Shown here one piece after another: positions 10,537 to 42,062 of a stretch of 64,000 nt of DNA. The notes below the pieces were generated by a model, which ran no database searches, was not told where the DNA came from, and saw only the letters and a list, made by a program, of their open reading frames with translations. A program made the position numbers and the translations under genes. Each line of letters begins with the position of its first letter. Position 1 is the stretch's first letter. Source of the DNA: Metabacillus halosaccharovorans (lineage in GTDB: Bacteria > Bacillota > Bacilli > Bacillales > Bacillaceae); NCBI RefSeq assembly GCF_002019635.1, contig NZ_KV917372.1:124001-188000 (forward strand), written 5' to 3'.

Positions 10537-11105
10537 ATGTCGATCAAAATTATTCCGATTATGTGGGGTACAAAAAAGCGTTTAATAAAAGACCTTGTAG
10601 AGCAAGAAATTCATACTGTTCAAAAGATATTTGAACAGGGAAGTTATGTATCACAGTGGGATGGTCGTGGTGTGGATAAAAAATACGTATATCGTTGTTT
10701 TACAGATGGAGACTTACCACCTAATGGAATAAAAGATAATGATAAAATTCAGACTATACGGATTCAGGGTAATAATGATGTTGTAGGGCTATTAACTACC
10801 TATCAAGATTATCCGAACCCAAAGACAATGTATATAACAAATTTATATATTGATCTTGAATATTAAAAACTAGGATATAGGCAAGAGGTTATAAATGAAT
10901 TGTTACGTATATTAAACAAAATGAATATGATGAAGTAGGTGCAAATGTTGCAATGAAAAATTGGTATGCTCTTAGATTTTGGGCAAAACTTGGTCTTAAT
11001 AAAATAAATGAGGTTTTTGAAGATAAAGAACACTCTTCTGATAATTATGCTGATGTTGAATTAATAATGGAGCTATCGAAAAGTAGAGCAACTTCAGTTT
11101 GTTAA
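10537..11105 (+). pseudogene. GNAT acetyltransferase, stop plus frameshift
   Basis: From ATG 10537: IIPIMWGTKKRLIKDLVEQE, TVQKIFEQGSYVSQWDGRGV, DDVVGLLTTYQDYPN-like beta strands (NNDVVGLLTTYQDYP) and YITNLYIDLEY. Then TAA where a Gln codon is expected, KLGYRQEVINELLRI (motif A, GYxQE), a one-base shift in an A run, and NEYDEVGANVAMKNWYALRF then WAKLGLNKI (motif B) to TAA 11103-11105. In-order fragments of one Bacillus acetyltransferase of about 190 residues. The frame open from TTG 10450 starts within the preceding repeat and is not a real start. Confidence 0.75.
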
Positions 11106-15807: not shown

Positions 15808-16064
15808 GAGGGCTTTTCAGGAACATTGTTCAGTATGGATTACCCGAACTTACACTTTTGTCATATCCTTATATTTTTATGTGTTTATCAGTTATATTAG
15901 GGAAAAGGGAAATCAGCACTGAGATTACATATTAAGCACGGAGAATAAAACTAAAAAAGAAAGGTAGTTTTAATTAGTGATGTAAGTTGATGATTTTTAT
16001 GTAATAATTGTTTTGTGAAATGTAAATTTTGCAATTTTCATACATAGTGAAAGTAGGGATCATA

Positions 16065-16505
16065 ATGGCAACGGGAACACATACAGTAGAAATTCCAGTA
16101 GATGTACAAGCAGTTTGGGATTATGTCAGTGATCTTGAAAAATGGGCAACGTCAGTACCAGCCTATAAAGAACATGAAATTATTAATGACAAGCAATCTA
16201 TTTGGACATTTGAAGGTAAAGTGAAAGGTATTAAAAAAACAATAAAAGCACAGGTAGATATTACCGAATGGAATGAACCTTCAAATATAAAGTTTGAACT
16301 AAAAGGTTTAACTGATAATTTCACAGGAAGCGGTCATTTTACTGCAGAAGATATGAATGGTAAAACAACCATGACTTGTACTGTAAACGTACATGCAGGT
16401 GGAATATCGGGTGCTGTGATAACACCAATTATTAAATGGGCTGTTCCAAAAGTAGCATCTCGTTTAACGGAATCGATTGCACGTAAAATTGCAGTATTCT
16501 CATAG
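16065..16505 (+). CDS. CoxG-like SRPBCC family protein
   Basis: 146 residues from ATG 16065 (MATGTHTVEIPVDVQAVWDY), preceded by AGTAGGGATCATA; a start 36 bases upstream has no ribosome site. The sequence follows the START/Bet v1 helix-grip fold: VWDYVSDLEKWATSVPAYKE, IWTFEGKVKGIKKTIKAQVD, FTGSGHFTAEDMNGKTTMTC, and a C-terminal helix SRLTESIARKIAVFS. CoxG-family (DUF1857/SRPBCC) proteins bind hydrophobic ligands; some are membrane-associated partners of CO dehydrogenase, but no cox genes are nearby. Terminated by the bidirectional hairpin at 16571. Confidence 0.85.
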   Translation: MATGTHTVEIPVDVQAVWDYVSDLEKWATSVPAYKEHEIINDKQSIWTFEGKVKGIKKTIKAQVDITEWNEPSNIKFELKGLTDNFTGSGHFTAEDMNGKTTMTCTVNVHAGGISGAVITPIIKWAVPKVASRLTESIARKIAVFS

Positions 16506-16655: not shown

Positions 16656-16851
16656 TGCCTCTGACGGGATTCGAACCCGCACTCCTTTCGTAAGCATAGG
16701 CTAGGGAAAGAACACGCTTCCCTACGGAATTTCACCGACAGGAGTTCCACCTGACTCAGCTAATTTGCTTTTCGGTGCTTCTGAAACCCTTGCCTTGCGA
16801 CCCGTTCCTACAATGTTTTACGGCGCTCTTCCCTTCTAGAGCTACAGAGGC
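16656..16851 (-). ncRNA. tRNA-like RNA with about 124 nt in place of the anticodon loop
   Basis: On the minus strand the 5' end GCCTCTG (16845-16851) pairs perfectly with CAGAGGC, followed by A (16656-16663). GCTC/GAGC form a D arm (16825-16842), GCGGG-TTCGAAT-CCCGT a T arm (16664-16680), and CGTAA/TTACG (16818-16822 with 16689-16693) an anticodon-type stem. Inside that stem lie 124 nt with their own nested helices: GCA..GGC/GCC..TGC, CACCGA/TCGGTG, CAGG/CCTG and TAGGGAA/TTCCCTA (16702-16724). No T33 or ordinary seven-base loop can be formed, the group I consensus is not visible, and it is too short and has no tag frame for tmRNA. No CCA is encoded. It could be an intron-bearing tRNA, a decayed tRNA or a new RNA class. 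Confidence 0.6.
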
Positions 16852-16865
16852 TTAGTTATCTTAAT

Positions 16866-16871
16866 ATTATA
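16866..16871 (-). promoter_or_regulatory. -10 box of the tRNA-like RNA
   Basis: TATAAT on the minus strand, 14 bases before the first acceptor-stem base. No clear -35 box; the upstream sequence is AT-rich. Confidence 0.45.
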
Positions 16872-26282: not shown

Positions 26283-26376
26283 TAAAAACACCTCCCATAA
26301 AAAGGTATGTGGAGGAGTAACAATAAAACACAAAAACATTGCATTAAAATCAATAGCAAAGGAGCTTATCTAAAAG

Positions 26377-27503: not shown

Positions 27504-28511
27504 ATGGAAGATCATCATATTCGTTTAACTTCGTCTGAAGTAGGTGGTTTGTGGGCAAATTATATTGCTGATACCATGTTTGTATGTGTTTATAAGTATT
27601 ATTTAGCTAAAGCCGAAGATGAGGAAATCAAAAAAGTATTAATGCATGCTTTAGATTTAGCTCAACAGCATGTACGAGTTGTTAAGGAAATTTTTAAAGA
27701 AGAAGGTCATGCTATCCCTCTTGGGTTTACTGAAAATGATGTCAATGTGGATGCTCCTAGGCTGTTTTCAGATGAGTTCTTTTTATTCTATACAAAACAT
27801 ATGACAAAAGGGGCTCTAGTAACCTACGGTGCCGTTTTGCCAAATACATTCCGTAAGGACATTAGAGAACACTTTATGTCTTGCATTTCCTCTACAATGG
27901 AATTATTTAATGAGACAACAGATCTTCTTCTTACGAAGGGTCTGGAAGTTCGCTCACCTTATATTCCATATCTGCAAGAAGTAGATATGGTTGAAAGGCA
28001 ACACTTCCTAGCTGGGTGGTGGGGGAAACAAAGACCTCTAACAGCCCCGGAGATTACTCACCTTTATTCTAATATTCAAACTAATTATATGGGTACAGCG
28101 GTTATAACTGGTTTCGCTCAGGTTACGAATTTAAAGGAAATTAGAGATTATTTCAGAAGAGGTAAAGAGATAGCAATGAAACAAATTAAAGTATTTGGTG
28201 AATACTTACATGAAAATAATCTCCCTGTCCCTATAACCTGGGATCCACTAGTTCAAGACATAACAGAATCTCCTTTTTCTGATAAATTAATGCTATATCA
28301 AATTTCCATGATGTCTGCTGCTGGAATGGGAAACTATGGAACTGCCATATCTGCCAGTCCAAGACGTGATATTGGTGCAGATTATGTACGTTTACAAGGA
28401 GAGGTCGGACTTTACGCAGAGGACGGTTTAAATCTCCTAATTAAGCATGCTTGGATGGAAAGACCCCCTCATGCAGTCGACAGAGATGAGTTAATGAAGA
28501 AAAAAATATAG
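27504..28511 (+). CDS. DUF3231 family protein
   Basis: A 335-residue protein; ATG 27504 after CTGGAGGTATTTTT. Two similar helical halves: HHIRLTSSEVGGLWANYIAD then TMFVCVYKYYLAKAEDEEIK, and RPLTAPEITHLYSNIQTNYM then GTAVITGFAQVTNLKEIRDY. Each resembles a ferritin-like four-helix bundle, with EEGHAIPLGFTENDVN following the first and LHENNLPVPITWDPLVQDIT the second. DUF3231 is a Bacillales family often seen near sporulation or coat genes; its biochemistry is unknown. Single gene. Confidence 0.92.
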   Translation: MEDHHIRLTSSEVGGLWANYIADTMFVCVYKYYLAKAEDEEIKKVLMHALDLAQQHVRVVKEIFKEEGHAIPLGFTENDVNVDAPRLFSDEFFLFYTKHMTKGALVTYGAVLPNTFRKDIREHFMSCISSTMELFNETTDLLLTKGLEVRSPYIPYLQEVDMVERQHFLAGWWGKQRPLTAPEITHLYSNIQTNYMGTAVITGFAQVTNLKEIRDYFRRGKEIAMKQIKVFGEYLHENNLPVPITWDPLVQDITESPFSDKLMLYQISMMSAAGMGNYGTAISASPRRDIGADYVRLQGEVGLYAEDGLNLLIKHAWMERPPHAVDRDELMKKKI

Positions 28512-28625
28512 ATTTAAAATTGAGTATGACAATCATAGAAGTAACGAACTATAAAAATGTATGGTTTTGAATATTTCTCATATATGAAATCAAACAAAAA
28601 ATATTTTAAAAAGGGTCAAACAAAT

Positions 28626-36217: not shown

Positions 36218-36585
36218 CAGATTGATCGTAAAGACGCTTATTAGATAAAATGTAACCAAAGAGAAGGTAATCAGTTGATTTTGCAGAATACTACTTCGTA
36301 TGTATCAGCAAATTTTCCGAAAGATGTGTTCATATTTGACATTTATCCAGAAGTTAGAAGGAGAAATTAAGGGTGCTTCTATTATATTATTAGTCTCAGA
36401 TATATTAATAAAAAACGGGAAATATCGTTTGTCCCTTTTATGAATTGAAGTATAGAGGTTAAGAGTGTAAGGTTAAATATTAGTTGTAACCCTCTAAATA
36501 TTTTTTGCAATTAACATAAGTCTTAATTTTTCGCCAATATTTCATTATTGTATGGTATTATGTAAAAAACTTCATAATTTTTTCT
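36218..36585. other. Gap upstream of the first cobalamin riboswitch
   Basis: No gene. The riboswitch promoter should lie near 36540-36570, where TATTAT occurs at 36556-36561 without a convincing -35. Confidence 0.4.
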
Positions 36586-36770
36586 ATAGGTGCTATCCTT
36601 CTTAAAGATAGATAGCTTAAAAGGGAAGTTTGGTGAAAATCCGACACGGTTCCCGCCACTGTAATTTTAGAGCAACTTGCATAATGTCACTGCTTTTTAT
36701 GAAAAAAGCGGGAAGGCGCAAGTAGTGTAGAAGATAAGTCAGGAGACCTGCCTATACGAACAACACTGAT
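36586..36770 (+). ncRNA. Cobalamin riboswitch 1
   Basis: Signature pieces in order: TTAAAAGGGAAGTTTGGTGA then AAATCCGACACGG, TTCCCGCCACTGTAA, GCGGGAAGGCGCAAG, and the B12 box AGTCAGGAGACCTGCCT at 36737-36753. It should bind adenosylcobalamin and turn off the transporter operon through the terminator at 36853. Confidence 0.95.
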
Positions 36771-41782: not shown

Positions 41783-41895
41783 TATCAACTTAAAAAGGTA
41801 TTTTCTACATAAGCTTTTATTATATTTACAAAAAATAGTATATTAACTTACGAGATTGTATGTTATATTAATAAAAAATTTAATAATGAATTTAA

Positions 41896-42062
41896 ATAAG
41901 TGCTCACAAATGTGAGGTAAAAGGGAAACTAGTGAAAGTCTGGTACTGCCCCCGCAACTGTAAGAGCTGATGAAATTACAATACCACTGAGATATCGGGA
42001 AGGTGTAAGAGTAAAAAGAAGCTTAAGTCAGGAAACCTGCTTATTTAAACGACACTTGCTTT
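41896..42062 (+). ncRNA. Cobalamin riboswitch 2
   Basis: AGGTAAAAGGGAAACTAGTG, AAAGTCTGGTACTGCCCCCG then CAACTGTAAGAGC, TATCGGGAAGGTGTAAGAG, and the B12 box AGTCAGGAAACCTGCTT at 42026-42042. It precedes the corrin biosynthesis operon and should repress it when adenosylcobalamin is abundant. Confidence 0.95.

Follow-up and report, generated by a model that had tools for sequence, protein, structure and literature searches.

Transfer RNAs of the Ser, Leu and Tyr type carry long variable arms, in the region where the extra arm of the RNA described here also sits. In the YrlA RNAs, a tRNA-like part has been proposed to recruit an effector for Ro, and Y RNAs reportedly lie near Ro60 genes in many bacteria and phages. 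We know of no function for the stable RNAs of the T4 tRNA cluster. In Bacillus cereus, the available part of one report describes tRNA-Other, a non-decoding tRNA-like RNA beside a genomic island, seen as a 74-bp RT-PCR product with a Trp anticodon within a longer transcript (PMC3399842). Phage tRNA arrays have been surveyed (PMC6409571), and the accessible portions of that survey and of PMC8632094 do not mention the present RNA. The plasmid ncRNAs named in the accessible text of PMC9484302 are rli28, ratA, the NiCo riboswitch and the fluoride riboswitch, none of which is this RNA. A prior description was not found in the open-licence PMC literature, and a description elsewhere is possible.

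The RNA gene and its covarying structure

The stretch of DNA that was analyzed (the window) comprises 64,000 nt of a contig of Metabacillus halosaccharovorans (NZ_KV917372.1, positions 124,001 to 188,000). The RNA gene occupies 16656–16851 on its minus strand (196 nt), from G1 at 16851 to the equivalent of discriminator A73 at 16656, and is present as a single copy in its own genome. An alignment of 29 copies with their flanks, read in part and by eye and including one decayed copy (L023), placed the limits of homology between distant copies at both ends of the RNA. As the preliminary description of the locus had proposed, the acceptor stem is formed by GCCTCTG (16845–16851) and CAGAGGC (16657–16663), followed by A. 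All acceptor pairs hold in 54 copies (100% of cells paired), with compensatory change at 3 of the 7 pairs. The D arm, GCTC-TAGAAGGGAA-GAGC (16825–16842, 99.5% of cells paired), and the T arm, GCGGG-TTCGAAT-CCCGT (16664–16680, 99.3% paired), were also read correctly in that description, as was a TATAAT box at 16866–16871 that ends 14 nt upstream of G1.

The box recurs upstream of the homologues. An exact TATAAT was found 12–26 nt upstream in 39 of 55 copies, versus 1 of 55 in each of two intervals further up; with 5 of 6 matching bases the counts were 47 versus 9 and 17. A strict two-box scan of the minus strand called no promoter, a good -35 element being absent. The terminator previously placed downstream was not called either by a strict scan of this strand, on which visual inspection shows weak hairpins with T-runs.

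Directly after the D arm comes H3, an anticodon-type hairpin (CCGT...ACGG, 16802–16823) whose loop starts with AAAAC. Two of its four pairs show two-sided changes, one of them in 19 of the 54 copies, and the loop sequence AAAACA is invariant. The 124-nt insert had been thought to replace the anticodon loop; it actually follows the anticodon-type arm and precedes the T arm, occupying the variable region, where a long arm is followed by a small hairpin. The long arm is closed by P4 (16787–16798 with 16694–16706), which is 98.1% paired with compensatory change at 3 of 11 pairs and which in phage relatives occupies the same place with another sequence. Inside P4 lie the two sides of a conserved core, AGAAGCACCGAA (16771–16782), common to the phage relatives, and GTAGGGAAGCGTGTT (16711–16725), found in them as GTAGGGAAGCGNGTT. 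Three hairpins follow within the arm: P5 (AGC...GCT, 16758–16769), whose pairs do not vary in the 54 copies and hence are uninformative on pairing; P6 (16737–16755, 7-nt loop TGGAACT), with compensatory change at 3 of 6 pairs and missing from 6 of the 54 copies; and P7 (GG-TGAAATT-CC, 16726–16736), which has the same loop type as P6 and is 99.1% paired. The small variable-region hairpin, C-GAAA-G (16685–16690), has its closing pair changed on both sides in 6 of 54 copies; its GAAA loop is of the GNRA type.

The loops of P6 and P7 follow a common pattern, GG-TGNAANT-CC, similar to the segment GGUGcaAauCC in the consensus of the cobalamin riboswitch. Two cobalamin riboswitches lie elsewhere in the window, on the plus strand (36571–36769 and 41881–42058, at 121.4 and 115.8 bits).

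Over the 54 copies, 99.2% of 2283 cells in this revised structure are paired, and 12 of its 43 pairs show two-sided compensatory change (92 such cells), the copies being mutually related so that the pair counts are not independent events. These changes fall in the acceptor stem, H3, P4, P6 and the variable-region hairpin, and none was found in the D arm, T arm, P5 or P7. None of 500 shuffled controls attained the observed values, and sliding the structure by 1–3 columns left only 37–50% of cells paired. The decayed copy L023, a Listeria plasmid copy with an altered 3' end (L041) and exact duplicates were left out of this alignment. Folded as a single sequence, the RNA stood out only modestly (z -1.86), with 9 of 200 shuffles reaching an equally good fold, and for the window copy the covarying structure is not the minimum-energy fold (-66.3 kcal/mol free versus -56.8 kcal/mol when enforced). 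The revised structure therefore rests on covariation, since energy folding alone prefers another fold. An alternative pairing, AAGCGTG/TATGCTT, was dropped, as its bases overlap P4 and it breaks in some copies when read by eye.

The covariance check on homologues upheld one part of the preliminary description and not another: compensatory changes exist, but three of the four helices drawn inside the insert lack them. The U-A pair of the proposed closing stem CGTAA/TTACG is broken in 35 of 54 copies without compensation, and its 5' strand pairs locally as CCGK/MCGG, within which lies the pair changed on both sides in 19 copies. In CACCGA/TCGGTG the last pair fails in 20 of the 47 copies that have residues at this place, with no two-sided pair in the helix, and TAGGGAA/TTCCCTA is paired in 80.5% of cells, again with compensation absent. 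Only CAGG/CCTG holds, with one pair changed on both sides. Taken whole, the earlier structure is 93.0% paired on the 54-copy alignment; its four two-sided pairs come from the acceptor stem (3) and CAGG/CCTG (1), both of which belong to the revised structure too. The suggested ACTCCT/AGGAGT pairing overlaps P6, which six copies lack. A decayed tRNA had been among the options offered, but the structure is maintained by compensatory change across the 54 copies. The feature is real and looks like an intact RNA gene rather than a decayed tRNA.

RNase Z favours U after the discriminator, and RNase P has a preference at position -1. In 48 of 55 distinct copies a T follows the discriminator, versus 34% T in the downstream 60-nt flanks, and of the seven exceptions L070 and L071 are out of register by one. 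At position -1, C or T occurs in 46 of 55 copies (C in 30), versus 15% C in the upstream 60-nt flanks. An encoded CCA follows the discriminator in 6 of 24 relatives whose ends were found (L114, L151, L180, L204, L232, L262). Acceptor, D and T arms are thus found together with tRNA-type end signals, and the bases at -1 and +74, the -10 box and the encoded CCA in some relatives would fit an RNA that is matured like a tRNA. The discriminator itself is A in 32 copies, T in 21 and C in 2 (the C by misregister), and this A/T variation argues against one fixed aminoacylation identity.

Distribution in Bacillales, plasmids and phages

BLASTN counts, which take in the own genome and fragments, gave matches in 39 of 397 genomes of the order and 17 of 136 genera (34 near-full, 5 fragments only), in 28 of 80 genomes of the family (21 near-full, 7 fragments only), in 10 of 21 genomes of the genus (7 near-full) and in 26 of 100 relatives. 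Full copies are mostly 84–96% identical. Among 72,556 plasmid records, 18 matched, 13 of them over at least 80% of the query, and the carriers were Listeria, Cytobacillus, Bacillus, Peribacillus and Priestia. The window copy as BLASTN query found no match among 50,697 phage records at that sensitivity; in the viral collection, two contigs carry the window-type RNA, one phage-like as judged from its reading frames alone (L042) and one with genes in common with Listeria plasmids (L043).

Flanks are common to copies in close relatives and not to distant copies. Across 49 loci, no neighbour protein family occurred in more than 4 loci, excepting reading frames over the RNA itself (reading frames of at least 80 codons, largest 40 clusters considered). 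Without common flanks among distant copies or a neighbour family, the RNA is therefore a lone gene, kept at its site in some species groups and moved or lost elsewhere. Sequence comparison shows the Bacillales RNA as a stand-alone unit of chromosomes, plasmids and a phage-like contig, in most cases preceded by TATAAT. Genomes with fragments only and copies without P6 indicate that loss of the RNA, or of P6, is tolerated.

Two loci call for separate mention. In another genome of the genus (L110, G019), a truncated copy lies beside a gene related to the window neighbour at 16029–16505, and the RNA site may be old within the genus. In a further genome (L103, G020:C36), a partial copy (26304–26376, query 122–196) lies 2.1 kb upstream of a full copy (28418–28614) on the same strand; the pair might follow the insertion of an element into the 3' part.

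A covariance model built from the 54 copies was searched against wider samples. In the class sample it recovered four members outside the order (G462, G774, G461, G592), two at 216 and 235 bits, one at 99 and one at 68, the last being an apparently decayed copy (G592). Hits of any kind were obtained in 220 of 398 genomes of the class and 206 of 398 of the phylum. Besides high-scoring family members and one fragment, the matches listed were mostly tRNA-sized, at about 22–34 bits (few alignments were inspected, two tRNA alignments among them), and no further family-level match appeared among those listed for the phylum. Since the model also picks up tRNA-sized matches at these scores, the frame of the RNA is tRNA-like. 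The 99-bit relative (L114), from another family of the class, comes last in a run of tRNA-Glu, tRNA-Ile and tRNA-Trp. Adjoining this divergent relative, ARAGORN reports a tRNA-Ile(tat) of unusual length (96 nt, L114 1798–1893, minus strand).

Scanning viral contigs for the core motif GTAGGGAAGCGNGTT returned at least 120 stretches, of which 79 of 120 were scored with the covariance model. Seven loci (L180, L159, L210, L187, L211, L150, L153) reached 51–137 bits. Three others (L162, L151, L204) scored 38, 34 and 25 bits, near or within the tRNA background, yet the core is present in them, and L229, L232, L233, L252, L257 and L264–L267 were assigned by motif and layout only. A two-part motif picked out 14 contigs and its looser form 16, to which a long-gap version added 2. 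These viral contigs are metagenomic and reach 433 kb. Searching with L159 gave matches in 34 phage records. In 23 of them, all Streptomyces phages, the match spans most of the RNA or its central part; the remaining 11 match in short pieces only. Throughout the RNA, L159 and phage Comrade are identical. Another query added four more Streptomyces phages, and one of these, Satis, was read and has the layout.

Comrade, Alone3, Kela and Satis carry no annotation for the RNA, and 21 of the 23 Streptomyces phage records leave the matching stretch blank, the other two having a hypothetical protein there. Such arrays have been surveyed before, yet the RNA remains unannotated in them. In Alone3, Kela and Satis it sits in a slot between annotated tRNA genes, and in Comrade it is flanked by two protein genes, rather than by neighbouring tRNAs, within a region rich in tRNAs. 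Of the 19 family contigs, 18 have a tRNA no more than 3 kb away, versus 10 of 103 controls that contain the bare motif, and 113 of 113 tRNAs in family contigs are on the strand of the RNA versus 0 of 63 in controls; the 19 were picked by motif and layout, and L187/L266, L159/L210 and L150/L252 are close relatives and so not independent. As far as these records go, relatives of the RNA thus reside in tRNA-rich regions and arrays of phages. Alone3 and Comrade also encode an RNA ligase in the same region, and Comrade a polynucleotide kinase and a tmRNA besides; such genes would be expected where tRNAs are under attack.

Ends of tRNA type were located by script in 24 of the 28 loci given to it; these 24 include two Bacilli copies (L262, L263) and the 99-bit relative. 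L271 and L272 lack the exact core pattern, L115 and L233 lack tRNA ends, and L263 is cut by a contig end. Acceptor pairing in the 24 is true by construction, as the script selected sequences with at least 6 pairs. The H3 loop usually reads (A)AAACGGA in the phages, AAAC or AAAAC occurs in the loop of 22 of all 24 sequences (exceptions L151 and L211), and the phage core consists of GCACCGAA and GUAGGGAAGCGNGUU enclosing a variable hairpin. Pairing of P4 in anchored windows reached a score of at least 5 in 13 of 18 cognate pairs versus 49 of 306 non-cognate pairs (0 of 2000 permutations); this replaced an earlier test with loose windows (20 of 24 versus 195 of 552). One core position, read by eye, is G-C in most phages, C-G in L114 and L180, A-C in L264 and U-U in most Bacillales, and such variation of a pair across phage and Bacillales copies is suggestive only. 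Plasmid mobility and the unannotated phage relatives point to an as yet unrecognised family of tRNA-mimicking RNAs, one that is small and conserved, with culturable hosts and phages in which the role of non-tRNA RNAs of phage tRNA arrays could be tested.

Possible roles of the RNA

The option of a tRNA-like RNA, one of those offered at the outset, survives, and on the sequence evidence it is very probable that the RNA is a tRNA mimic. It has no anticodon loop or reading frame and, in Bacillales, no linked gene; it has a CCA-type end, and relatives have tRNA genes as neighbours. These features together suggest a tRNA mimic acting in trans. Our preferred reading, which we consider rather probable, is that of a mobile, CCA-ended, non-decoding tRNA mimic; its action in trans without decoding we regard, on balance, as probable. 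A short transcript would be cut at the tRNA ends by RNase P and RNase Z, and CCA, added or encoded, would then give a stable CCA-ended RNA that tRNA-binding host factors could accept. The H3 loop would read no codon, the conserved core of the long arm may bind a partner, and the RNA would act in trans for its carrier element. The leading proposal for its role is that, while a phage infects or a plasmid resides, it serves as a decoy or adaptor among the factors that act on tRNAs; this is weakly held and should be taken as tentative.

Association with Ro60 would offer another role. Here the RNA would be a Y RNA whose long arm binds a Ro60-like (TROVE) protein of the phage and whose tRNA-like part recruits an effector. 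A Ro-like protein is encoded in 90 of 50,697 phage records, among them ten RNA-bearing Streptomyces phage records, and in Alone3 it matches Pfam TROVE with an E-value of 6.4e-14. A Ro-like gene follows about 45 nt after the end of the RNA in both L150 and L252, and about 320 nt after it in L153. A TROVE protein that is adjacent or in the same array suggests a Y-RNA role in several phages. Nevertheless, TROVE is absent from all 100 Bacillales relatives, own genome included, 26 of which match the RNA. The Comrade/Gilson/Moab group (17 RNA-bearing records) is absent from the best 60 of the 90 records matching the Ro-like protein, which include all 13 Streptomyces records. Conversely, the Ro-bearing phages BRock, Atuin, VanLee and Frankenweenie are without the exact core motif, and Alone3, GiJojo and Kela have separate YrlA-like RNAs, below the Rfam cut-off, upstream of Ro. 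We therefore consider unlikely a Y RNA of this kind, which unlike YrlA would keep the usual tRNA topology and leave its CCA end free. The decoy or adaptor is kept in preference because TROVE is missing in Bacillales, 17 RNA-bearing phages fall outside the Ro list, the YrlA-like RNAs are separate and four Ro-bearing phages lack the exact core.

The YrlA model RF02553 gave no match over its gathering score in 10 records, and in Alone3, Comrade, Kela and GiJojo no listed YrlA match overlaps the RNA. In Alone3, the YrlA-like permuted RNA upstream of the Ro-like gene lies at 10582–10696 (L280 1501–1615; 33.8 bits against a cut-off of 69), and a second weak YrlA match at 10963–11023 overlaps an annotated tRNA-Ser(gct).

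The arm could also be a ribozyme or a small-molecule sensor, the tRNA frame serving only for stability and processing. Its core strands are unusually conserved while P4 varies and yet stays paired, which would favour this. However, no ribozyme or riboswitch family matches, and a linked gene is absent from the 49 loci; we judge such a function rather improbable.

A tRNA interrupted by an intron had been proposed as well, and would make the arm a small self-splicing or enzyme-removed intron, with a spliced product that decodes. ARAGORN in intron mode does report a tRNA-Ile(tat) with a 117-nt intron, the RNA occupies a slot between tRNAs in some arrays, and the core is conserved in the manner of a catalytic site. 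But the stem of the intron model is the one broken in 35 of 54 copies, and the tRNA-Ile(tat) reading was rejected as this stem fails in homologues. The anticodon-type arm is complete without splicing, and no 7-nt anticodon loop with U33 and an anticodon was found (U33 by eye; AAAC or AAAAC at the loop start in 22 of 24 sequences). H3 being already complete, with no usable anticodon in its loop, excising the rest would therefore yield no decoding tRNA. ARAGORN at default settings found no tRNA or tmRNA in the window, and the Rfam comparison that had been called for gave no family match for the RNA at gathering score, group I and II introns included, in line with the earlier statement that it is neither a tmRNA nor a known intron. 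Relaxed thresholds added nothing convincing (E 0.13 or worse), and the Comrade relative scored 19.1 bits with the tRNA model RF00005, against a cut-off of 29. In addition, the tRNAs in the first 22 kb of Alone3 cover 19 amino acids, Cys missing, whereas Comrade, which also has the RNA, has tRNA-Cys; no single missing isotype therefore explains both. An intron-bearing tRNA is thus very unlikely.

That the RNA derives from a tRNA, is dead or decaying and has spread only passively, as a site of integration (attachment), would account for fragments in several genomes and for the partial copy 2.1 kb from a full one, but is hardly credible given the compensatory change, the -10 box and end signals retained in 54–55 copies, and a core strictly conserved across phage and bacterial copies.

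Comparison with known RNAs

The non-decoding tRNA mimic that we favor shares features with several described RNAs. Like tmRNA, it has tRNA-like ends that enclose a structured insert; it differs from tmRNA in its normal D arm and in that a tag reading frame is not evident, loop lengths differing by 1–2 nt between copies. ARAGORN with -m found nothing, the Rfam tmRNA match covers only 15 nt at 8.5 bits, and Comrade has its own annotated tmRNA besides the RNA. T4 rnaC (species 1 RNA) is likewise a stable non-tRNA RNA in a phage tRNA cluster, with the T arm GGGTTCGAATCCC, but no core motif was seen in its sequence, which scores only 11.1 bits with the family model. In T4 rnaC (L277 1409–1547, minus strand), the tRNA-type T arm is accompanied by long predicted helices. 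The tRNA-Other of B. cereus is set apart by its description, as far as that text was available, since the window RNA is not a 74-nt pseudo-tRNA with a Trp anticodon (PMC3399842).

The position of the extra arm is shared with the tRNAs of the Ser, Leu and Tyr type, from which the window RNA differs by an arm that is far longer, by its conserved internal core and by the lack of a decoding loop. YrlA (RF02553) has, like the window RNA, a tRNA-like domain with D and T arms, and the same phage records contain sub-threshold YrlA-like matches close to the Ro-like genes. In the Rfam alignment, however, YrlA is permuted (T arm, closed acceptor hairpin, D arm) and so is without a free acceptor end, whereas the ends of the window RNA are those of its acceptor stem. 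By sequence and covariation, the window RNA consists of a tRNA frame (acceptor, D, anticodon-type and T arms) with a long variable-region arm that holds a conserved internal-loop core. There is a real, if slightly less than even, chance that it stands for a new class, in which an unpermuted, CCA-ended tRNA frame carries a conserved RNA domain in its variable region, and which is common to Actinobacteria phages, metagenomic viral contigs and Bacillales mobile elements and takes part in conflicts over tRNAs between a host and its phage or plasmid. Such an RNA would be a new design alongside the few known natural tRNA mimics.
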